In this document: positions 4,953-21,444 of the stretch, piece after piece | Layout: each line of letters starts with the position of its first letter | Position numbering within the stretch: position 1 is the stretch's first letter | Assembly (NCBI RefSeq): GCF_001593605.1 | Contig: NZ_CP012836.1 | Coordinates: 558,001 to 622,000, forward strand | Direction of reading: 5' to 3' | From: Algoriphagus sanaruensis | GTDB taxonomy: Bacteria > Bacteroidota > Bacteroidia > Cytophagales > Cyclobacteriaceae | DNA: 64,000 nucleotides | Notes under the pieces: generated by a model | Told to the model about the DNA's origin: nothing | The model's input: the letters and a program-made list of their open reading frames with translations, nothing else | Databases searched by the model: none | Program-made: the position numbers and the translations under genes

Positions 4953-7421
4953 TTATTTTAAAAGGATGAACTCATTGATTTTTTGAGAAACTTCAGGGAT
5001 AAATTTGGGCGAATAGGCATCCAAATGACCTCCTTGAATATGTAAAATTTCAAACTTATCCACAGTGCTTTGCTTCCATAATTCAATGTCCTGAAGTGAA
5101 GTTGCCATGGAAAGATTGGAATAAACCAAAAGTAGGTTCGAAACCTTTTCTATTGGTGTAGTCTGTCTTAAAAACTCATGAACACTTTGATTGAAAAGTC
5201 CCTTTTCTTCGTTTGTGGCATGGGCATTCTTTTTAGCAAAACCCCAAAACAATTCAAAAGTCTTTTGAATGGCTTCTGAAATTGGTCTTTGGATAAATAA
5301 CCCTTTGAGGTAATTCACTCTGGATCGATTTGATCGATTAAGTTTTGGACCTTCTGTTCCAAAACTGTAAAAAGGAGAGTCCAAAAGAATAACCCCAAGT
5401 CCAAGTTTGCTCGCCACTTTTGCAGCCAACCAACCATTGAAACTTGATCCAATCAAATACGCATTTGTGTAAGGCATGAGCAAGTTTTCCAGTTCTTCTA
5501 AAATGGAAGCTGATGACTTTCCTTTTAGTATCGCAAAAATATCAATGCGCAAGGTTGCTGTGGAGAATTGTGGACTTGCCTCAAGCTGCTCCCTTAATGG
5601 AGAAAGTGAATCGTAGTACCCTGATTCCAAAAATAGTAACCATGTGAAAGCTTGATTTCTGGATCTTTTCGAAATTTCCAAGACCGGAAATTTCGGCTCG
5701 TCCAATTCCTGAATAGCTCTGGAAACTAGGGAAATCGTACGGTAGGTGTGGATCATTTGCAGCGGGAGTTCCTTGTTGAGCTCTTTGCTTAACTCTTCAA
5801 TAATGAAAGCTGCAAGCATTGAATTTCCACCCAGATCTAGGAAAAAATCAGCATCAAGCCGATCGATCATTATGTTCAATTCCCGAGTCCAAATCTCATA
5901 AACCAATTTAGTGGTAGTGTCCTGAATCTGAAGTTTTCTGGCCTTTAAAGCATGTTCATTCGCAATTTTTTCAAGACTAATTCGGTCCAGTTTGCCATGA
6001 GCATTCATGGGAAAAATATCCAAGGGGACATACAGCCTAGGCGCAGTCGTAAGATGAGATTGGGAATGAAAATGTTCACGGATTGCATGCTCGCTCCAGG
6101 ACTCTTGGCTCAAAATAAATGCGACTAAATAGGAGAATCCATGAGCATCATGAACCACGAGAACCTTGCATTCTGTGATTTGGGGCTGAGCAACATAAAT
6201 TTCTTCTCTGATTCGGCTCAAATCCACAAAAACCCCATTCACCTTTTGTTGGGTTTGATTTCTTCCTACGAGTTTCAGAGCACCTTCTTTATTGAAGAAT
6301 CCTAAATCACCCGTATGGTAAATTCGGTTTTGATCATCTACAGGATGGAATAAAATTTTCCTTTGGAACCAATACCCCAAGCTGATATACGGGGAATACA
6401 CCACAATTTCTCCGACTTCACCTAGATTGACTTCTGCATTAGTGTCATCCAGGAGTTTTACTTGCTTTTTTCGGACAGGAACTCCATCCTGAATTAGGTC
6501 AAATTGGGTGTTTTTGGGAGAACAAGAAGTTGCGGAGATCGTTCTAGTTTCTGTGCTTGCATAGGCTAATTGCAGCAAAACTGAATCTGGAAAATGGAAA
6601 GAAACCAATTTCAAATCTGAAGCCTGAATTGGCTCTCCACCGAGACATAAAAATCGGATAGAAGCCGTAAATTCTGAAAGACGATTTCCCAAAAGCAGAA
6701 CAATGCCCCGGAATGCAGTACTTGTCAAGGTGGCCATCGTCACTTCATATTTTTTCCAAAAACGCGGAATTTGTTCTAAGCCTTGCTCTGAAATAGCATG
6801 TACCACCAATGCAGCGCCTGAAAGCCAAGCAGGGAAAATACTGGCAAGTGAGGAGCTAAAGGAGGCAGCAAAAAGAAAGTCGATTCGGTCTTTTGAGGAA
6901 ATATGATTTTCTTCAATCTGACGATCCGTATCTTCCACTATTGATCGGTAATCATGCAAGACATACTTTGCTGATCCTGTACTTCCAGAAGTCGCATAGA
7001 CACAAAAAAATCGATCTTCCCAGTTATTTTCATTTTTCCACCATGGCTCCAAGGCAGATACAGAATCCTTTAAATCACTCATGGAGCAGGTTGCAACTGG
7101 GAGCGACTCAAAAGATTCGATATCTGTCAAGATTAGAGCTATGGGGACATGATCTAAAACTTCTTTTCCCTGATGATGGGGTAGAAAGAAAAAGTAATTT
7201 CCAGATAATAAGACCGCTAAGGCTGCAATAGCCTCCTCTGCCTTTGATTTTAAGGCGATCCCAATACAGGCCTGAGATAGATTCCTTTGCTGAAGTGATG
7301 CTGCGAGTTTTTTCGCCAGATTCAATAGTTCTGAATAAGTAAGTTGCAGCTCATCCGAAAGCAGTGCAGGATTTTCTGATTGATTTTCAGCAATCCAAAA
7401 AAACTTATCCCACATGCTCAT
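4953..7421 (-). CDS. NRPS-like protein: adenylation, peptidyl carrier and thioesterase domains
   Basis: An 822-residue single-module megaenzyme. The adenylation domain (about 1-500) has core motifs A3 (TSGSTGSAK, 144-152), A5 (ASTETR, 288-293), A7 (HTGD, 369-372) and A10 (GKLDR, 476-480). A carrier domain (about 505-575) carries the phosphopantetheine Ser534 in LGGNS. The C-terminal alpha/beta hydrolase (about 590-822) has a thioesterase-like nucleophile elbow GSSFNG (Ser660), Asp681 and His799. There is no condensation domain. It could activate an amino or aryl acid, load it on the carrier and release or dimerise it, as in related A-T-TE enzymes; the substrate is unknown. The start overlaps the stop of the GNAT gene by 17 nt, so the two are co-expressed. 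Confidence 0.9.
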   Translation of the reverse strand: MSMWDKFFWIAENQSENPALLSDELQLTYSELLNLAKKLAASLQQRNLSQACIGIALKSKAEEAIAALAVLLSGNYFFFLPHHQGKEVLDHVPIALILTDIESFESLPVATCSMSDLKDSVSALEPWWKNENNWEDRFFCVYATSGSTGSAKYVLHDYRSIVEDTDRQIEENHISSKDRIDFLFAASFSSSLASIFPAWLSGAALVVHAISEQGLEQIPRFWKKYEVTMATLTSTAFRGIVLLLGNRLSEFTASIRFLCLGGEPIQASDLKLVSFHFPDSVLLQLAYASTETRTISATSCSPKNTQFDLIQDGVPVRKKQVKLLDDTNAEVNLGEVGEIVVYSPYISLGYWFQRKILFHPVDDQNRIYHTGDLGFFNKEGALKLVGRNQTQQKVNGVFVDLSRIREEIYVAQPQITECKVLVVHDAHGFSYLVAFILSQESWSEHAIREHFHSQSHLTTAPRLYVPLDIFPMNAHGKLDRISLEKIANEHALKARKLQIQDTTTKLVYEIWTRELNIMIDRLDADFFLDLGGNSMLAAFIIEELSKELNKELPLQMIHTYRTISLVSRAIQELDEPKFPVLEISKRSRNQAFTWLLFLESGYYDSLSPLREQLEASPQFSTATLRIDIFAILKGKSSASILEELENLLMPYTNAYLIGSSFNGWLAAKVASKLGLGVILLDSPFYSFGTEGPKLNRSNRSRVNYLKGLFIQRPISEAIQKTFELFWGFAKKNAHATNEEKGLFNQSVHEFLRQTTPIEKVSNLLLVYSNLSMATSLQDIELWKQSTVDKFEILHIQGGHLDAYSPKFIPEVSQKINEFILLK

Positions 7422-8172
7422 ATACCTCTAGCTGCTGAGCTAAGGACATCCCTTGCTTGATCATATTTTGGTGGCTAATGCTCCCTTCATAAGCCCAAGA
7501 ATAAATCGGAAGATCAGGCTTACCAGATTGACATATTTTCATCCTATGAGCTAGAGAAGCTTTATGGAATCCCAAATTTCGATGGGATCTGTTGATAGCA
7601 CCCACTGAAAGAATCTGGACATTTTCATCCGAATACAGTCCGGATATCCCTACCGGATTTCCTTGAAAATTGACAAAAAAGAAAGAGATCCCGGGGATTC
7701 TGGATTTATGAAGAAAATTCTCCTCCACAGATTCAGCATGTCGGTTTTCAGCTTCAAAACAGCTTAAATAAAGCCAGGCAAATTCCTGAATCCGATCCTC
7801 AGTCACCCTCACTAACTCGATCTCAGGTGATACTGCGGCGCTTTTAACACTTTTTGGATCTATTTTCATGACAGAAATTCGCTTCACATTTTGATAGACG
7901 CCACTTTTCTGCAAAACCTCCTTTGAAACCAAATCTTGTGAATCAATCAAAACTTGATGTTGGTGCTGAAATGTATCTGCATAAAAACCCCTAATCAAAT
8001 CCAACATTTCAGGGCTTTCTATCCGACCGATGCAATAATTGAAATATTGGATTGGTGTAAATTTTAATAAGGTAAGCGCAGGAGTATGAGAAATCGAAAT
8101 CGTACTTCGTATCGACTGATTATTTCGAAAAGCTTCCAATCGAAGCAAATCATACTGAAGAAGGGTATTCAT
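7405..8172 (-). CDS. GNAT family N-acetyltransferase
   Basis: A 255-residue protein whose C-terminal half (about 120-255) has the GNAT fold: a beta strand GISFFFVNFQGNPVGISGLY followed by the acetyl-CoA-binding region with RSHRNLGFHKASLAH, which resembles the R/QxxGxG/A loop. The N-terminal half is less conserved and may be a second, degenerate GNAT repeat. It is the upstream partner of the NRPS-like gene, with overlapping reading frames, which suggests it acts on the same metabolite, perhaps as an acyltransferase taking acyl groups from the carrier domain. The acceptor is unknown. Confidence 0.75.
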   Translation of the reverse strand: MNTLLQYDLLRLEAFRNNQSIRSTISISHTPALTLLKFTPIQYFNYCIGRIESPEMLDLIRGFYADTFQHQHQVLIDSQDLVSKEVLQKSGVYQNVKRISVMKIDPKSVKSAAVSPEIELVRVTEDRIQEFAWLYLSCFEAENRHAESVEENFLHKSRIPGISFFFVNFQGNPVGISGLYSDENVQILSVGAINRSHRNLGFHKASLAHRMKICQSGKPDLPIYSWAYEGSISHQNMIKQGMSLAQQLEVYEHVG

Positions 8173-9999: not shown

Positions 10000-10580
10000 T
10001 GGTTTTCGAAGAAATAAAAAAGAAGATTTACGAAGACATTTTGGAAAAATTGCCTTCCCACCTGACCTATCACAATCTGGCTCATACAGCCTATGTATTA
10101 GATCGAGCCGTATTTTTGGCAGAGCAATCCAAAGTCAGTTCCGACGAACTCGAACTCTTACGATTAGCTGCACTTTTCCACGACACAGGATTTATTGAAA
10201 GTCCCAAAGATCATGAAGAAAGAGGATGCAAAATCGCAAGATCCTACCTTGCCGAATCCTACTCCGAAGAGCAACTGTCTCTTATTTGTGGGATGATTAT
10301 GGCAACTAAAATCCCTCAAAATCCACAAACTGAACTTGAGAAAATCCTTGCCGATGCCGATTTGGAATATTTAGGAACTGACCTTTTTGAAGAAATCGGG
10401 GAAAGTCTCTACAAGGAATTGAAACATTCGATTCCAGATTTTTCGCAGCAGGCTTGGGACGAGCTGCAGCTGGCATTTATGGAAAAGCACCATTTCCACA
10501 CTGATTATTGCCGGCAAAACCGCGAGCCTAAAAAGCAGGAAAATCTGCTGATAGTGAAGAAGAGATTGGGATTTGTTTAA
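9999..10580 (+). CDS. HD domain phosphohydrolase
   Basis: A 193-residue cytoplasmic protein with the metal-binding HD signature: His in YHNLAHT (about 24-30), the HD pair in LFHDTGF (about 65-71), a further His in DHEERG and a late Asp in LADADLEYLG. These are ligands for one or two divalent metals in phosphodiesterases and nucleotide hydrolases. The substrate is not predictable. It is coupled to the YitT gene upstream, and converges with eboF, whose stop lies within its last codons. Confidence 0.85.
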   Translation: MVFEEIKKKIYEDILEKLPSHLTYHNLAHTAYVLDRAVFLAEQSKVSSDELELLRLAALFHDTGFIESPKDHEERGCKIARSYLAESYSEEQLSLICGMIMATKIPQNPQTELEKILADADLEYLGTDLFEEIGESLYKELKHSIPDFSQQAWDELQLAFMEKHHFHTDYCRQNREPKKQENLLIVKKRLGFV

Positions 10581-11947
10581 CTGCGAACAGCCCTTAATAT
10601 TAAATCAAATACTTCAGTGGGTTGAATCCTATCGGATGAAATTAATTTAGAATCCCCCACCAAAAGCGGCTTGTCCAAATCTGACTCAGGAATGCGTCCA
10701 TGTGCCCCCTTCACTAAGGTTGCATCCAAAGGAATCACATCCATCAGGTAGCGAAAACCGAGCTTTTTCTTCAGGACTTTGGAGCCGATTTTTAGGATTG
10801 GAATTTTGATCGCAGGATCAAGCACGAGCTCGACAGGATCGTAACCAGGTTTTCGGTGGATATCCACACATCTAGCATAGTCGGGTGCTTTGGTATCGTC
10901 CAGCCAGAAATAATAAGTAAACCAAGAATCCGCATCCGCGATCACCACCAAATCCCCCGAACGGGCATGATCGATGTGGTAGTCTTTTTTTCCTTGGGCA
11001 TCCAGCACTTTTTCCACACCCGGAGTCTTTTCCAGCAGGGCTTTGACCTCGGAAAGTTTGGAGTGATCATTGACATGTACATGAGCCACTTGATGATCCG
11101 CTACCGCAAATACCGCCGATGTGCCGGAATCAAGCGTCTCCCTACCTAGCTCATTTTTCACCTGAATCCAGCCTTTTTCCCTGAAAATGCGGTTGAGATG
11201 CACTGGCTTACTCACACTTGTAATTCCATACTCCGAAAGCAACAAAACCTCAGCGCCTCTACTTTCAAAAAAGGTTATCAAGTCCCTGGCCAAATCGTCC
11301 ACCTCTTTAAGGTCCTTGGAGATTTTGGAAAAGTCGATCCCGTACTTCTGGAGGTTATAGTCCAAATGTGGAATATAGATGAGATTCAATGTAGGATTGT
11401 ACCATTCCTCTACCTTTTTGGCCGCCTCGGCGATCCATTTACTGGATTCGATGGTAGTATTCGGCCCCCAAAAAGTGAAGAGCGGAAACTGTCCCAACTC
11501 AGCCTGAAGCTTGTCTCGCAGCTCCATGGGTTGGCTGTGGCAATCGGGCAATTTGCGGCCATCTGCAGGATATAGCGGTCGCGGAGTTACAGCATAATCG
11601 GCGGATGAATACATATTGTACCACCAAAACAGATTCGCTACGGTAAAACCAGGATTCTCTTTCCGCAGGACTTCCCATACTTTTTCAGCTTGTACGAGCT
11701 TATTGGACTGACGCCAAAATTTAATCTCGCACTCATCCTGAAAGTACCAGCCATTGCCTACGATGCCGTTTTCCGTTGGCCACTTTCCGGTCAGATACAC
11801 AGATTGGGCCGAGCAGGTAACAGCAGGAAGTACGGGTTCGACCACAGCTTGCTTCTTGGATGCGATCCATTTTTTCAAAAAAGGCGTATGCTCTCCGATC
11901 ACTCGGGGAGTCAAGGCAACAATATCTAGAACGACGGTCTTTTTCAT
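10577..11947 (-). CDS. eboF: EboF-like alkaline phosphatase superfamily phosphodiesterase
   Basis: A 456-residue member of the type I phosphodiesterase/nucleotide pyrophosphatase family. Metal-site features include the N-terminal LDIVALTPRVIGEHTPFL, the nucleophile region PAVTCSAQSVYLTGKWP (Thr as nucleophile) and the later LLSEYGI and DHARSGDLVVIAD segments; the usual DHG is replaced by SEYGI. No signal peptide is present, so it is probably cytoplasmic. It is the last gene of the ebo cluster, where a phosphodiesterase of this type is the standard sixth member. A 189-bp spacer with repeats separates it from eboE, so it may have its own promoter. Confidence 0.8.
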   Translation of the reverse strand: MKKTVVLDIVALTPRVIGEHTPFLKKWIASKKQAVVEPVLPAVTCSAQSVYLTGKWPTENGIVGNGWYFQDECEIKFWRQSNKLVQAEKVWEVLRKENPGFTVANLFWWYNMYSSADYAVTPRPLYPADGRKLPDCHSQPMELRDKLQAELGQFPLFTFWGPNTTIESSKWIAEAAKKVEEWYNPTLNLIYIPHLDYNLQKYGIDFSKISKDLKEVDDLARDLITFFESRGAEVLLLSEYGITSVSKPVHLNRIFREKGWIQVKNELGRETLDSGTSAVFAVADHQVAHVHVNDHSKLSEVKALLEKTPGVEKVLDAQGKKDYHIDHARSGDLVVIADADSWFTYYFWLDDTKAPDYARCVDIHRKPGYDPVELVLDPAIKIPILKIGSKVLKKKLGFRYLMDVIPLDATLVKGAHGRIPESDLDKPLLVGDSKLISSDRIQPTEVFDLILRAVRS

Positions 11948-12001
11948 GGTTAAACTATCAAATCAAGGGGCTGAACCCAATTATGCCAATGTTAAAGAAC
12001 A

Positions 12002-12127
12002 GATTTACGAATTCAGAATTACGATTTACGACCTGTAATCGAAATTCAAACCTTATTCTCAAAAAGGTTAAATCCTGAGAAAAAGCCCCAAACTTCTCTC
12101 CACATCGTAAATCAAAAACCGTAAATC
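12002..12127. repeat. short dispersed repeats in the eboE-eboF spacer
   Basis: GATTTACGA occurs at 12002-12010 and 12023-12031, and its complement TCGTAAATC at 12105-12113 with a near copy CCGTAAATC at 12119-12127. The outer copies can form a large stem. The same nine bases recur in another spacer at 31679-31687. This resembles a degraded intergenic repeat family; whether it affects transcription between the two ebo genes is unknown. Confidence 0.55.
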
Positions 12128-12136
12128 AAGGAACAT

Positions 12137-13354
12137 TTAATCCTTCTTCAAGGTCTCTATCACCCAACTTAACTCCCTAGCAATTGAATCACCCAAGGTC
12201 AGGTGGGTATCTTCTGGCAGAACTTCCCAAGTATAGGTTTCTACTTCCAGATGTTGGGTAATCTCAGGATTGGATAAAATTTGATTGAGTACAAGGGAAA
12301 TATCGCTTTGTGTAGACTGGAATGAACCATAATTGTCCAAAAAGACCGGAACATGAAAATGAATTCGCCACTCCATATCCTTGGTTTTGCTTAAGTGCTC
12401 AATGGCCTGAGGCAAATCCGGATAAGAGGCAAACTGTCCATCTTTCCTACGTGCCACGACTTGATGAAGGTAGGTTGATTCGGCAAATTCTTCCAAGCGT
12501 TTCACAAGACTGAACCGTTCATTTGCTGAATTAGGAATCATTACCTTCAGCGCTGCTGAAATTTGAATTTTGCCAATCTGAATTCCGGCGGTTTTCAACT
12601 TTTGGAAAGTTTCTGCCGGGTTTTCATAAACGATAGCAAAATGACAAACATCGTAGCAAGCTTGGATATGCGTTTTTATGAGATTTTCTGCTTCCTCTTG
12701 CGAAATATCAAACTTGGAGGTTAATTCGGTTTTCCCTTTTGGCAATAACCATTTTTGAAAATAACTGATGAGCTCGTCGGAATTTTCAAGTATCCCATCC
12801 GGTTCTGGCTCAATATCTAAATGGAGAATTTTTCCTGTCTGCTTTTGGATGTTCACCAATTCTTCCACAACCTCAATTAGTTGATTGGTAGATTTTTCGA
12901 TGGCTTCATTCTTGGCCTTTTCAGATTTAAACCAATGTCTATACGAAAGCGGGGAAGTTGAAATTCCACCTTTCATACCTTCTGGAAGTAATTGAGCTAA
13001 AATCTGAAAACTCCGAATGGTATATTCCTTTCGTTCCGGAGTAGTCCAGTCTGGGGAATGCACATTTTCTTTTACCTTGGTTCGGTGAAAACCTCCATAT
13101 GGAAAGCAATTCAGGGTAAAAACATAAGCATTTGTCTTTTTTAGCCATTCCTGAAATTCCTTCATCCGCTCTGGACGCTCCAAAATCAGAGAAGCCTCAT
13201 GAGAAAGTCGAAGACCTATTCCAAATGGGCCTTTGTGTTTAAGGCGGTTCTTTACCTCAGGAATATAAATTTTGAGGTTTTCAAAAGTAGCATCCCAAGA
13301 TTCTCCTGGATGAATATTGCTGCAATAGCTAAGATGAAAGTCATTGATTTTCAT
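12137..13354 (-). CDS. eboE: metabolite traffic protein EboE (TIM-barrel, xylose isomerase-like)
   Basis: A 405-residue protein of the EboE family, with an AP-endonuclease-2/xylose isomerase TIM-barrel fold. Typical pieces are the N-terminal FHLSYCSNIHPGESW, an FPYGGFH strand, the metal-site-like LHLDIEPEPDG (about 180-190) and CYDVCHFAI (about 232-240), and the C-terminal VETYTWEVLP. In this superfamily the Glu, Asp and His of such strands bind a divalent metal. It lies between eboD, 13 nt upstream, and eboF. The cluster is implicated in moving a metabolite precursor to the periplasm; the reaction of EboE itself is not established. Confidence 0.9.
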   Translation of the reverse strand: MKINDFHLSYCSNIHPGESWDATFENLKIYIPEVKNRLKHKGPFGIGLRLSHEASLILERPERMKEFQEWLKKTNAYVFTLNCFPYGGFHRTKVKENVHSPDWTTPERKEYTIRSFQILAQLLPEGMKGGISTSPLSYRHWFKSEKAKNEAIEKSTNQLIEVVEELVNIQKQTGKILHLDIEPEPDGILENSDELISYFQKWLLPKGKTELTSKFDISQEEAENLIKTHIQACYDVCHFAIVYENPAETFQKLKTAGIQIGKIQISAALKVMIPNSANERFSLVKRLEEFAESTYLHQVVARRKDGQFASYPDLPQAIEHLSKTKDMEWRIHFHVPVFLDNYGSFQSTQSDISLVLNQILSNPEITQHLEVETYTWEVLPEDTHLTLGDSIARELSWVIETLKKD

Positions 13355-13367
13355 AGACTGGAAAAAT

Positions 13368-14522
13368 TCAGGATGTTTGGATGGCAGGCTTTTGCTCCAA
13401 GCTACGAAGGATTTCTACTGATTTAAAGATCAGGCTATGATCCATCTCATGCACCTCCACCCCTTTTCCCAACTTTTCCAATAGCATGATCGTCAACTGA
13501 CCACCTAAGTGTTCTTGGAATTCCTTGAGACCCTGAATTAAATTTTCGCCTTGAAGTTCTGGTGCAAAAAGCTCAAAACCGAGAGTATGCATCAAATGGA
13601 TAATCCGGTTGAAATCCGATTCAGAAATTCTCCCCTGCAAATAGGAATAGGCGGAATCCAAGGCAATTCCGATTGCCACCGCCTCTCCATGCCGGATACG
13701 GAAGTCACTCAATTTTTCCAACTTATGCGCAGCCCAATGTCCAAAATCCAGGGGTCTGGAACTTCCAAACTCAAAAGGATCTTTGCCAGCGATATGCTCC
13801 ATATGCATTTTAGCTGATCGAATAATATGGGCTTTCATGGGCTCCATCTCCCTGCGGGCAAGACCTTCTCCCACATTTTCCAACCATTCGAAAAAGCTCA
13901 AATCTTTGATTAACGCCACTTTGATAGCTTCGGAGATTCCTGCTCTCCAGTCACGGTCATCCAGTGTCTTGAGGAAATTGAAATCATTTAATACTGCCAC
14001 AGGAGGCACTAACGTCCCGAGGTAGTTCTTTTTTCCAAAGGCATTGACACTATTTTTGACCCCAACAGCAGAATCATTTTGGGACAAGACAGTTGTAGGA
14101 ATTCGAACCAGACGGATTCCCCGATGAGAGATAGCTGCCGCAAAACCCACCATATCCAATACAGCTCCACCACCGATCACAGCGATGTAAGAATGTCGAT
14201 CAATCCCATAAAGGTGGGTCGCTTCCACAATCCTTTGGTATTCAGATTCGTCATTTTTGCAAGCTTCTCCTCCGATCGCAAACATTGGTTCGGCGGCCAA
14301 CGTGAAGACATCCGTGTAGGCTGAAGCATATTTTTTCACTTCATCAATCAGATTTGGATGTGCCTCTGACACTCCACTGTCGATGACAAAGAGTACTTTG
14401 GGCAAGCGATCGCCACGAAGAACATTGGCGAGGATTTGATTTTGTGGATCAAATAGATTCTCAGTAAATGCTACCGGGTAGCGGAAAGGAACCGAAAAGG
14501 ATTGTTCGAGAATCGTATTCAT
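13368..14522 (-). CDS. eboD: EboD, 3-dehydroquinate synthase-like sugar phosphate cyclase
   Basis: A 384-residue AroB-superfamily protein. It has the NAD-binding IGGGAVLDMVGFAAA loop and the PTTVLSQNDSAVGVKN motif of dehydroquinate synthases, the DRDWRAGISEAIKVALI metal-site helix and the RHGEAVAIG segment with a ligand His. The ATG at 14522 is preferred; an in-frame TTG at 14558 would add twelve residues without family-like sequence. In ebo clusters this AroB-like protein is distinct from the housekeeping enzyme, so it may act on another sugar phosphate. No other shikimate gene is nearby, which supports the Ebo assignment. Confidence 0.88.
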   Translation of the reverse strand: MNTILEQSFSVPFRYPVAFTENLFDPQNQILANVLRGDRLPKVLFVIDSGVSEAHPNLIDEVKKYASAYTDVFTLAAEPMFAIGGEACKNDESEYQRIVEATHLYGIDRHSYIAVIGGGAVLDMVGFAAAISHRGIRLVRIPTTVLSQNDSAVGVKNSVNAFGKKNYLGTLVPPVAVLNDFNFLKTLDDRDWRAGISEAIKVALIKDLSFFEWLENVGEGLARREMEPMKAHIIRSAKMHMEHIAGKDPFEFGSSRPLDFGHWAAHKLEKLSDFRIRHGEAVAIGIALDSAYSYLQGRISESDFNRIIHLMHTLGFELFAPELQGENLIQGLKEFQEHLGGQLTIMLLEKLGKGVEVHEMDHSLIFKSVEILRSLEQKPAIQTS

Positions 14523-14591
14523 GATGCAGGGAAATAGGTTATTTGGGACTTCCTTCAAGACAATTTGTGAAGGAATTTGGTTTATTTTCGC

Positions 14592-15506
14592 TTAGGTTAC
14601 AGCAAATTTTTTGGCTAACCAAAGGGAAATGGGAAGAAGAAGCAAAATGACAATTCCAATGGACCAACCTGCAAACGCTGACGCCAAGGACGCATTCACA
14701 ATGATCAATGAAATCACTGCTGCTTTTACAGATTTACCGATGAATTTGGGCTCTTGCGTTCGAATCGCCTTTGCCAATGGTGGAAATAATAAATAGCCAA
14801 GCAAAGCTAAAAAAGGAACAACTTCTAGGTATCCCGCTCCTTCCAGATAGGTTAGACCTATGATTGCCAAAAATATCAACGAATACATCGCTGCTCCAGC
14901 AAAAAGGGCCTTTCTGTTTTTTCCATGGACCTCACCTCTGCTAATTATTGTAATAGCAGAAACATAGATCAAAGGCAAAATTCCGATCGGCCAGATTTTT
15001 TCTAAGACTTCAGGTGCAACACTTATTCCAAGGAGAAGATTACCTGTTCGACAAAGCCCCATATTGATGGGACCTAAAATCCGCTGATGCTTTCCCAAAT
15101 AATCATACAGCACAGCACAGGCTGCTACGGCAATCGCTAAAATTCCAGCAATTTGATTGACTTGAAAGGCGCAGAAAATCCCAAAAATCAAGAGGAAGGA
15201 AGACATCCAAAATGCTGCTTTTTTTGAAACTCTTCCGCTCGGAATTGGGCGCTCTGGTCGCTCAATGGCATCCAACTCAGAATCAGCTACATCGTTGAAA
15301 GCAACTCCACCTGCATACAAACCAATTGTACTCAATGAAAGCCAAATCAAATTCCACCAAAATTGCTGGTCTCCAAAATTCCAATTGTTGGCCATATACT
15401 CCCAAGCCCCAGCAATGGCAAAACCCGCCCAGATATCAGCGATCGCAGTGATCACATTGGCTGGGCGGGTCAATTGGAGGTATGCGAAAATCTTCGAATT
15501 GCTCAT
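14592..15506 (-). CDS. eboC: UbiA-like prenyltransferase EboC
   Basis: A 304-residue membrane protein with eight or nine helices, of the UbiA aromatic prenyltransferase superfamily. The first Asp-rich motif NDVADSELD (about 82-90), followed by ERPIPSG, is the classic prenyl-diphosphate/Mg site, while the second is reduced to YDYLGK. It starts 3 nt after the eboB stop, so they are in one operon. Membrane location fits the proposed role of the cluster in passing a metabolite across the inner membrane; whether EboC still transfers a prenyl group is not known. Confidence 0.9.
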   Translation of the reverse strand: MSNSKIFAYLQLTRPANVITAIADIWAGFAIAGAWEYMANNWNFGDQQFWWNLIWLSLSTIGLYAGGVAFNDVADSELDAIERPERPIPSGRVSKKAAFWMSSFLLIFGIFCAFQVNQIAGILAIAVAACAVLYDYLGKHQRILGPINMGLCRTGNLLLGISVAPEVLEKIWPIGILPLIYVSAITIISRGEVHGKNRKALFAGAAMYSLIFLAIIGLTYLEGAGYLEVVPFLALLGYLLFPPLAKAIRTQEPKFIGKSVKAAVISLIIVNASLASAFAGWSIGIVILLLLPISLWLAKKFAVT

Positions 15507-15509
15507 GGA

Positions 15510-16421
15510 TTAATTTTCTACCCGATCGGCAGGTCCCTCGACGCGTGGAACCTGACCACCACGAAGAACGGAATTTCCTCCCAGTTTTTTGGTCTGATCA
15601 ATAGGAGGAGCCTTTAACCAATCATCTTCGTGCATTTGGCCACTCAAACCAAAAACAGTAAGGGCGTTTTGATAAGTAGTCAATCGGACATGCTCCTCAG
15701 GAATCCCCATTTTTCGCATCAGATTGGCAGTCTTGGGCACTGCTATTGGGTCAGAAATTCCCCAATCAGCTGCCGAATTCACGATAATTCGCTCTGGTCC
15801 GTATTGTTTCACAATCTCAACCATACGCTCAGAACCCATTTTGGTATGTGGATATATCGTAAATGCAGCCCAGAAGCCACGATCCAAAACTTCCTTGACG
15901 GTTTCTTCATTGTTATGATCCACGACCACCCAACCTGGATCCATGCCATGCTCCTCAGCTACATCCATAGATCTAGTGGTCCCTTTCTTTTTATCCCGAT
16001 GGGGAGTATGAATAAGCACGGGGAGATTTACATCCTTGGCCAATTCAAGTTGAAGTCGATAGAATCGGTCTTCTGCTTCGGTTTGATCATCGTAGCCAAT
16101 TTCACCGATAGCAACCACGCCTTCTTTACCAGCATATAGGGGAAGTAATTCCATTACCTGCTCCGCCAAAGGCACATTATTGGCTTCCTTAGAGTTTAGG
16201 CCCATGGTACAATAATGGACGATTCCAAATTGGCTTGCTCGAAACCGCTCCCAACCTACCAATGTGGAAAAGTAGTCTTTGAAAGAACCTACTTCCGTTC
16301 GAGGCTGGCCCAACCAAAATGCCGGCTCAATCGTGGCCACAATCCCTGCTTTTCGCATAGCTTCGTAGTCATCCGTGGTTCTTGAGACCAAATGAATATG
16401 GGGATCGATATACATTTCCAT
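15510..16421 (-). CDS. eboB: EboB, TatD family metal-dependent hydrolase
   Basis: A 303-residue amidohydrolase-fold TIM barrel of the TatD type. The metal-binding HxH motif is DPHIHL (about 6-11), with further conserved Glu in AIGEIGYD, His in LIHTPHRDK, His in VDHNNEE and Asp in NSAADWG. Such proteins are two-metal hydrolases, but the ebo member has no proven substrate. Two Met codons at the start (16421 and 16415) are both plausible. It lies 49 nt downstream of eboA and 3 nt upstream of eboC. Confidence 0.9.
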   Translation of the reverse strand: MEMYIDPHIHLVSRTTDDYEAMRKAGIVATIEPAFWLGQPRTEVGSFKDYFSTLVGWERFRASQFGIVHYCTMGLNSKEANNVPLAEQVMELLPLYAGKEGVVAIGEIGYDDQTEAEDRFYRLQLELAKDVNLPVLIHTPHRDKKKGTTRSMDVAEEHGMDPGWVVVDHNNEETVKEVLDRGFWAAFTIYPHTKMGSERMVEIVKQYGPERIIVNSAADWGISDPIAVPKTANLMRKMGIPEEHVRLTTYQNALTVFGLSGQMHEDDWLKAPPIDQTKKLGGNSVLRGGQVPRVEGPADRVEN

Positions 16422-16470
16422 AAATAATTCAGAATTAATGAGTGATTAAAATTAAGTGAATTTGGCCCAA

Positions 16471-17358
16471 TCAGGCCTTTTTGTCCTGAAAATCCTTTCC
16501 GATTTTCTCCCATGAAATTTCTCCATATTCAATGGCAGAGACGGTTTCAGGAAACGATTTAAGCAAGTCCTTTGCTGGACCAAAATCAGCTTGGTAAGCT
16601 GCTAAAACTCCAGATTCGACCTCTAATTGGTCTTCGGAAAAGACGACTTTCTTCAAGTCTTCTAGCAATTTTTCATTCAGAAAAGGAACCACCAATCTCC
16701 ACAATTCAGGCATGACCGGTCGACCTGCTGCCCAGCGTTCATGAGCAAAATCAGAGGCAATTTCTGCAAGAGCTTGATTTCGTCTTTCATCTAATTGCTG
16801 AATTCGGAAGATCGGGCGCTGCATAAATATGGATTTGAGCACGAGTTGGTTCCAATTGGCTTCCGGAAAATAGGTAGGTGGAAAAGGATTATTTAAAGCA
16901 ATCGCATCAAAAATAAGTGTCATGTTGGTGCGACATCCGTCAATTGCTCGGGTTAACATCTCCTTTGGATACGGCATCAAAGGTAAAGCCGCATAAAGTG
17001 CTTGCTGTTCATGCATATCCCCAGTTTCAAAAAGCTGGTTGACAGCTTTTAGCCATGATTCCTTTTCTGGGGAAAATTCCAACACGAGCAGCGTTCTGGC
17101 AGTTTGCAACAAATCCCAATGGCTAGGATCAAATCCTTTCAACAGCTCATTAGCCCCAATTTTCTCATTTGCTGTTAAATTCAGATTGTCTTTTTTAAAA
17201 AAACGAGAGGCTTGAGAAAAAGCAAGAAAAAATTTAGAACTGGATAGGTCAGACCGATTCTTTTCTAATTGATTTTCGAGCCATTCCAAAGACTTTTGTT
17301 CAGCTCTATTTTGAAGCAGCGCTAGCAGAAATTCACTAGATTTATTTTGGGTTTGCAT
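16471..17358 (-). CDS. eboA: EboA family metabolite traffic protein
   Basis: A 295-residue alpha-helical protein recognised as EboA by position and by its Leu- and Arg-rich helical repeats, including the DLLQTARTLLVLEF and YAALPLMPYPKEMLTRAIDGCRTN segments. No enzyme motif is visible, and no signal peptide or membrane helix. The ATG at 17358 is preferred to an in-frame TTG at 17364. As first gene of the operon it is divergent from the O-acetyltransferase gene across 171 bp, where the ebo promoter must lie; no clear -7 box was found there. Confidence 0.85.
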   Translation of the reverse strand: MQTQNKSSEFLLALLQNRAEQKSLEWLENQLEKNRSDLSSSKFFLAFSQASRFFKKDNLNLTANEKIGANELLKGFDPSHWDLLQTARTLLVLEFSPEKESWLKAVNQLFETGDMHEQQALYAALPLMPYPKEMLTRAIDGCRTNMTLIFDAIALNNPFPPTYFPEANWNQLVLKSIFMQRPIFRIQQLDERRNQALAEIASDFAHERWAAGRPVMPELWRLVVPFLNEKLLEDLKKVVFSEDQLEVESGVLAAYQADFGPAKDLLKSFPETVSAIEYGEISWEKIGKDFQDKKA

Positions 17359-20453: not shown

Positions 20454-20487
20454 AAGGCTCGAGAAAAATTCTCGAGCCTTATTTTTT
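20454..20487 (+). terminator. strong intrinsic terminator after the M28 peptidase gene
   Basis: A perfect 12-bp stem (20454-20465 with 20469-20480, loop AAA) followed by ATTTTTTG on the plus strand. It also lies at the end of the converging phosphodiesterase gene, but the minus strand has no T run after it. Confidence 0.92.
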
Positions 20488-21444
20488 GTTTATCAAGGAA
20501 GTCCCATCCCAGTTTTTTCGTTGATTTTCAGGTACAGGAATCGACAAAAAATCAATCAATGTGGGTAGAATATCAGCCATTGCCGCTTGCCCAGAGTAAA
20601 ATCGCTGATTTAATTCCTGGCAATTACTTACCATCCAAGTCTCGCGTTCCGAATCACTTTGACCCCCGTGATCTTTTAAGTCGGGACCTTTCCTTCCATG
20701 ATCTGTGGTAATCCAAATGAGCCATTCTTCTTTAAAATTCTGCTCTCTATATTGGATTGCATTCCAAATTCTCCCGACTTGGCTATCTGCCAATTCAATC
20801 GCTTGGGTCAGTTGAGGGCTTTTTCCAAACCGATGCCCCATATCATCTGTATATTCTAAATATACCCAAGCAAGATCGGGAGCTTCCGTTTTTAAAACAT
20901 GAGCGGCCTCATACGAAACCAAATTATCAATCTTTTGGATGTAAAGTTTTTCCTCATCGTGTGGAAAAAGAACCGTGTCATTTTCAAACCCATCAAAAAC
21001 AAAATCCAAGGTTAAATTCCCAGTTTCAGGCAATCCTTCACCCAGCAACTTGGTGCGATTATCTTCCCATGTGGAAAAAATAGCAAGTTTTGCATCAGGC
21101 TTTGCTTCCCTCATCAACCTGAAGATCGTCCAATAAGAATAATTAGGTGCCTCGATTCCATTGCCCCAAACGTTATGTTTATTGGCCCAAGTCCCTGTTA
21201 ATAAAGAATTATATCCTACCGCAGAAATGGTTGGAGTTTCCGATGCACCCCCTTTTTCTCCACCCGTAAAGGCTCTGGCATATCCACCAATTTTGGCTAT
21301 TTGATCCAAGTTTGGCGTCACAGCTTTTTCAAGTTCAACTGCTGGAATCCCATCCAGAATAATGAAAACCACCTTTTTATCTTGGGAAAAACCAAAATTG
21401 GAATAAAGAAAAATCAACCCTAAACAAAGAATTCTACATAGCAT
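20479..21444 (-). CDS. exported alkaline phosphatase superfamily protein (type I phosphodiesterase)
   Basis: A 321-residue secreted protein with signal peptide (about 1-20, cut near GFSQ). Metal ligands and nucleophile of the nucleotide pyrophosphatase fold are seen as FIILDGIP (Asp), SETPTISAVGYNSLLTGTW (Thr or Ser nucleophile region), DDMGHRFG and TTDHGRKGPDLKDHGG (Asp, His, His). It probably hydrolyses phosphodiesters or phosphomonoesters in the periplasm. It is a different subfamily from EboF. It ends at the terminator hairpin shared with the M28 gene. Confidence 0.9.
   Translation of the reverse strand: MLCRILCLGLIFLYSNFGFSQDKKVVFIILDGIPAVELEKAVTPNLDQIAKIGGYARAFTGGEKGGASETPTISAVGYNSLLTGTWANKHNVWGNGIEAPNYSYWTIFRLMREAKPDAKLAIFSTWEDNRTKLLGEGLPETGNLTLDFVFDGFENDTVLFPHDEEKLYIQKIDNLVSYEAAHVLKTEAPDLAWVYLEYTDDMGHRFGKSPQLTQAIELADSQVGRIWNAIQYREQNFKEEWLIWITTDHGRKGPDLKDHGGQSDSERETWMVSNCQELNQRFYSGQAAMADILPTLIDFLSIPVPENQRKNWDGTSLINKK

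Follow-up and report, generated by a model that had tools for sequence, protein, structure and literature searches.

What does a six-gene ebo cluster do in a bacterium outside the cyanobacteria, and for which cargo? The question is raised by a 64,000-nucleotide stretch of the Algoriphagus sanaruensis genome (Cyclobacteriaceae; contig NZ_CP012836.1, positions 558,001 to 622,000 of the forward strand; hereafter the window), in which eboA-B-C-D-E-F lie consecutively on the minus strand at 10577-17358, all six intact. An earlier note, made from the sequence alone, had described six ebo genes in order on one strand, and both the family membership and the gene order hold. The cluster belongs to the ebo operon family, is complete and has the ABCDEF form, an order given as ancestral in Bacteroidetes (PMC5133447); it is a typical operon, ordinary as a cluster, whose open function is general to the family and not special to this genome. 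New here is a statistical and positional association of ebo with the TMEM220 family of small membrane proteins. The cluster is laid out as follows:

16471-17358, minus strand: eboA; ATG start; 295 amino acids; the mechanical open reading frame (ORF) extends to 17364
15510-16421, minus strand: eboB; predicted TatD/amidohydrolase-like enzyme
14592-15506, minus strand: eboC; predicted UbiA-superfamily membrane prenyltransferase
13368-14522, minus strand: eboD; ATG start; predicted sugar phosphate cyclase; the mechanical ORF extends to 14558
12137-13354, minus strand: eboE; predicted xylose-isomerase-like TIM-barrel enzyme
11948-12136, no strand: eboE-eboF gap; 189 bp with several ATTTACG / CGTAAAT words
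10577-11947, minus strand: eboF; predicted alkaline-phosphatase-like phosphodiesterase/phosphatase

Measured between mechanical ORFs, the intergenic gaps are 49 bp (A-B), 3 bp (B-C), 33 bp (C-D), 13 bp (D-E) and 189 bp (E-F); the last is 178-202 bp in four near relatives, and its median is 1 bp across 102 measurable loci. At the level of profiles, placement in the Ebo families stood for EboC (equivalog NF035940, 402 bits; cut-off 250), for EboE (equivalog NF035939, 508 bits; cut-off 250) and for the EboA domain (NCBIfam model NF035938, 175 bits; cut-off 50), whereas EboA fell below the stricter family model NF035937 (242 bits; cut-off 320), which makes it a domain-containing protein outside the narrower subfamily, and EboB and EboF reached broad families only. 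The sole matches above cut-off were TatD_DNase PF01026 for EboB (61.5 bits; cut-off 27) and Phosphodiest PF01663 for EboF (193.6 bits; cut-off 23), while EboD matched PF01761 and PF24621 and passed PRK06203 (559 against 333; NCBI name 3-dehydroquinate synthase). Because no EboB-, EboD- or EboF-specific model was among the matches listed, the identity of these three was assigned from gene order and homologous loci; their families, PF01026, PF01761 and PF01663 in Pfam, are the broad ones of the 2016 description.

The comparison of gene order in relatives that the earlier note had proposed returned the exact A-B-C-D-E-F block in 85 of 103 loci. These loci were picked by EboE with simple gene calling and comprise the best 80 of 584 confirmed loci, 34 stretches from as many of the 53 ebo-positive family genomes, and the window; from this total of 115, 12 were removed (11 duplicates and L148, which lacked a called EboE). 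In the other 18 loci end genes were missing, ORFs were inserted or genes were uncalled; four of them had an opposite-strand ORF at the expected place of eboB, probably a gene-calling artefact. Since at least 7,996 of the 8,000 EboE candidates scored were related at E<=1e-3 and the exact block recurs in 85 of the 103 EboE-picked loci, chance is excluded. EboE was present in 53 of 148 family-group genomes and in 24 of 296 phylum-group genomes, so that ebo is patchy, and the close relatives that carry a genus label are Algoriphagus.

Which gene outside the six might belong with them was suggested by co-occurrence and gene position. The TMEM220 family (PF15071), counted at E<=1e-3 in raw counts that ignore ancestry, was found in 51 of 53 ebo-positive versus 33 of 95 ebo-negative family genomes; one match per sample (G037 and G230, both ebo-negative) lies below the curated cut-off. 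In 20 of 74 ebo-positive genomes a TMEM220 gene is found no more than 6 kb from eboE. Three arrangements occur, and in the tightest the gene overlaps eboF by 4 bp on the same strand. Cyclobacteriaceae and Salegentibacter, as well as genomes from other orders of the class, often show such placement in or beside ebo (L204-L211, L125, L139), and TMEM220 is the most widespread non-ebo neighbour family overall (8 of 41 genus labels). In the window's genome the gene stands apart:

G000:C1:3459975-3460268 (L184): TMEM220-family gene, 2.9 Mb from ebo

Taken together, co-occurrence and position make TMEM220 a likely overlooked partner of ebo, although not one dedicated to it: 33 ebo-negative genomes carry it, it also adjoins ThuA/glucose-dehydrogenase-type and other genes, and on well-supported branches of its gene tree the ebo-linked label has to change at least five times. 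As controls in the family sample, the phytoene-synthase family PF00494 was found in 51 of 53 ebo-positive versus 83 of 95 ebo-negative genomes (p 0.09) and rhodopsin PF01036 in 27 of 53 versus 26 of 95 (p 0.007); in the phylum sample rhodopsin was found in 8 of 24 versus 34 of 272, counted by eye. Because the rhodopsin control is also weakly associated with ebo, lifestyle or ancestry may explain part of the TMEM220 signal. Tentatively, and with somewhat less than even confidence, we propose that TMEM220 may be a seventh, unrecognised component of ebo in Bacteroidota which performs or supports the membrane step, possibly as the translocator missing from the six-gene cluster. The three-helix MPC and SemiSWEET transporters were considered for TMEM220 in this connection, and from the fold searches we claim no transporter identity for it. 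The human TMEM220 is reportedly a Golgi protein required for normal secretion, and if the partnership is true it gives a bacterial pathway context to a family found in humans too. The main text of the paper which named the ebo operon contains no occurrence of TMEM220 (PMC5133447).

How the Ebo proteins might act together can be approached from their predicted active sites. To the reading that we favor we would give an even chance: ebo would build a prenylated membrane compound of cyclitol or aromatic origin that aids the passage of hydrophobic metabolites across the inner membrane. Its ring would come from EboD, acting on a sugar phosphate other than 3-deoxy-D-arabino-heptulosonate 7-phosphate, probably sedoheptulose 7-phosphate. 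Judged by profile and active site, EboD is a sugar phosphate cyclase and not the housekeeping 3-dehydroquinate synthase: it scores 225 bits against the aroB model TIGR01357 (cut-off 305), and a second gene of the genome, a separate AroB, scores 336. Relative to this AroB, EboD retains E210, H274, H290, K168, N178 and D162 and carries the active-site changes K204 to H252, R218 to S267, N222 to D271 and K303 to E349; H252 and D271 recur without exception in the 120 alignment rows.

The ring product of EboD would then be modified by EboE and EboB. The fold of EboE, a xylose-isomerase-like TIM barrel, is an assignment from the literature, and a search by sequence with profile A1 (E<=1) found no solved relative; E182, D235, H238, H297, H332, H334, E370 and E372 are invariant in 123 of 123 rows. 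His8, His10, Glu107, His138, His169 and Asp219 of EboB are invariant in 112 of 112 rows, and we take these residues to be metal ligands, as in the TatD family. EboC would attach an isoprenoid in the inner membrane (farnesyl in vitro); its motif N71-D72-x2-D75-x3-D79 is intact, and of 117 rows 2 are gapped at this position and the other 115 all keep it. A phosphate group would be removed or cleaved by EboF, in which T44, D196, Y240, D284 and H285 are invariant in 122 of 122 rows and E239 in 121 of 122, and for which no solved relative was found by sequence at E<=1e-3. EboA, of the length usual among the listed homologues, is predicted to fold into an all-helical solenoid of HEAT/ARM type in which several polar residues are invariant, and may bind the substrate or hold the enzymes together; the fold searches yielded no TPR (the published guess for EboA), AlkD or transporter identity that we would claim. 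The resulting compound would be a lipid cofactor or carrier letting hydrophobic aromatic metabolites reach the periplasm, in a membrane step which in Bacteroidota probably also uses the TMEM220-family protein.

A second PF01663 phosphodiesterase-family gene lies at 20479-21444, 3 kb from eboA, with a signal-like N terminus by eye; 17 of the 103 loci, which fall under four labels, have such a gene near ebo, an Algoriphagus-type synteny.

Literature on homologues supplies the experimental background. Every ebo deletion tested in Nostoc (A, B, C, E, F and the whole cluster; an eboD deletion was not among these mutants) trapped the scytonemin monomer in the cytoplasm, with no gene-specific intermediate, and no lipid-linked monomer was detected, an ebo-made lipid carrier being proposed there as a hypothesis (PMC6282210). 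The earlier note had credited ebo with moving a scytonemin precursor; what has been reported is one phenotype in one organism. An isoprenoid-cyclitol pathway and product had been predicted when the operon was named (PMC5133447). EboC of Algoriphagus machipongonensis PR1 and the Zobellia enzyme farnesylate 8-hydroxyquinoline-2-carboxylate (8-HQA); of the 14 acceptors offered to Maribacter EboC, the preferred ones were 8-HQA and quinaldic acid (PMC9235831).

Several points weigh against the proposal of an ebo-made membrane compound. The passages of the ebo literature drawn on here report no isolated ebo product, the sole reaction described in them being the in vitro farnesylation by EboC of offered aromatic acceptors. 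Because that activity was shown on quinolines and not on a cyclitol, the isoprenoid-cyclitol step is without direct support. Residue 8 of EboF is D in 70 and N in 52 of the 122 rows, so the metal site of EboF may vary. TMEM220 is missing in 2 of 53 ebo-positive genomes of the family sample and in 6 of 24 of the phylum sample and is therefore not universally required.

Could the cluster instead make one secreted secondary metabolite, such as a farnesylated tryptophan-derived quinoline or indole, with the scytonemin phenotype being indirect? We regard this as rather unlikely. The acceptor preferences of EboC agree with it, the EDB cluster of Pseudomonas fluorescens, which contains a full ebo cluster (PMC6282210), gave indole compounds in E. 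coli according to a review (PMC9655573), and kynureninase is present in the window's genome. However, kynureninase (E<=1e-3) does not follow the distribution of ebo, being found in 49 of 53 ebo-positive versus 85 of 95 ebo-negative family genomes, and the 99% complete genome G010 has ebo and no kynureninase match; the kynurenine pathway was thus set aside as a marker of a quinoline cargo. Furthermore, no family of tailoring enzymes or exporters recurs next to ebo under more than 8 of the 41 genus labels, and the Nostoc mutants build up the scytonemin monomer, for whose synthesis in E. coli scyA-C suffice (PMC6282210). That the Ebo proteins form a transport complex which moves small molecules across the inner membrane and makes no new compound appears improbable. 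The identical cytoplasmic retention in the single deletions tested in Nostoc speaks for such a complex, and the predicted solenoid of EboA would suit a scaffold; yet the predicted catalytic positions of EboB, EboC, EboD and EboE hold invariant residues that a purely structural role would not need, and no transporter family is among the Pfam matches of the six Ebo proteins.

A cargo specific to this strain was also considered, in the most biosynthetic-looking genes close to ebo within the scanned part of the window:

4953-7421, minus strand: nonribosomal peptide synthetase-like (NRPS-like) adenylation-carrier protein; Pfam AMP-binding and PP-binding
7405-8172, minus strand: GNAT-like protein; no family match, and so labeled GNAT by eye

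That the cargo here is the product of these two genes is very improbable, and they were rejected as a cargo pathway. They sit 2.4 kb beyond eboF, from which three plus-strand genes separate them, and they stand between two genes that are direct neighbours in all 9 other loci where both occur; full-length relatives of the NRPS-like gene occur sporadically, in 6 of 72 genus genomes (its own included). From this pattern, 4953-8172 is a local insertion and not part of ebo.

The neighbourhood at large is in keeping with the absence of a cargo pathway. The earlier note had found none recognisable beside the cluster, and indeed none is conserved, but this is not peculiar to the window, given that no non-ebo neighbour family exceeds 8 of 41 genus labels across the 103 loci. 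Its statement that no scytonemin gene is near holds for the 23 window proteins scanned (20 with Pfam, 20 with NCBIfam, 17 with both), in which no scytonemin family was among the matches listed (the best 25 where a protein had very many), no dedicated scy-model search having been made. The commonest non-ebo neighbours by locus count are an M28 peptidase (32), YitT (28) and an HD protein (23), the M28 gene being restricted to Algoriphagus and four kin. Upstream of eboA on the same strand, Cyclobacterium and Lunatimonas carry DUF4432, another gene, TIM-barrel and Gfo/Idh/MocA genes (L125:1033-5747 and like loci; last gap 174-573 bp), perhaps for sugar or cyclitol catabolism. Arrays of related genes lie directly 3' of eboF in several Algoriphagus (L070:12858-20882, L073, L083); a scan of one of them gave DUF4221. 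In Mycetohabitans endofungorum and Aureibacter tunicatorum (L178:4051-7069, L179:3064-6124) a 633/587-residue protein and a PF12902 ferritin-like protein lie immediately upstream of ebo; with its VioB-like ferritin, this pair is a possible cargo pathway of another kind, and PF12902 occurs in 6 of 148 family genomes, 3 of them with ebo, and not in the window's genome. In Ketogulonicigenium vulgare (L177:6679-8725) two Gfo/Idh/MocA oxidoreductases with overlapping borders lie upstream of eboD on the same strand.

The window's cluster adds a further example to a family first described in 2016, and the cluster type, the missing cargo and EboC activity in the genus are already in print. Solving ebo matters since its transport phenotype comes with no obvious transporter gene (PMC6282210) and the enzymes it encodes hint at a membrane compound not yet described. 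The product could conveniently be sought in this host, which is not a cyanobacterium, has its genome in one contig and its operon intact, and belongs to a genus from which an EboC has been assayed. The TMEM220 link, which supplies a concrete new candidate gene, is the part worth following.

Among known systems, ebo is spread over several bacterial phyla and is also found in the plastids of some algae, and the clusters described from Bacteroidota and eustigmatophyte plastids (Yurchenko 2016; PMC5133447) have the same six families in ABCDEF order on one strand; against that description no difference in make-up was seen, the window's eboF being set off by 189 bp. The Ubi-297/EboC enzymes of Maribacter, Zobellia and A. 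machipongonensis PR1 (PMC9235831) are the same type of prenyltransferase in an ebo cluster, one of those assayed coming from the same named genus, whereas the window's EboC is known from sequence alone. The EDB cluster of P. fluorescens NZI7, with its full ebo set, is connected in a review with the production of indoles and the repulsion of nematodes (PMC9655573). In Nostoc punctiforme (Klicki 2018; PMC6282210) eboA, B, C, E and F are homologous, but the cluster is associated with scytonemin and eboD, close by, points the other way, whereas in the window eboD is within the operon and no scytonemin family was among the matches listed for the scanned neighbourhood.

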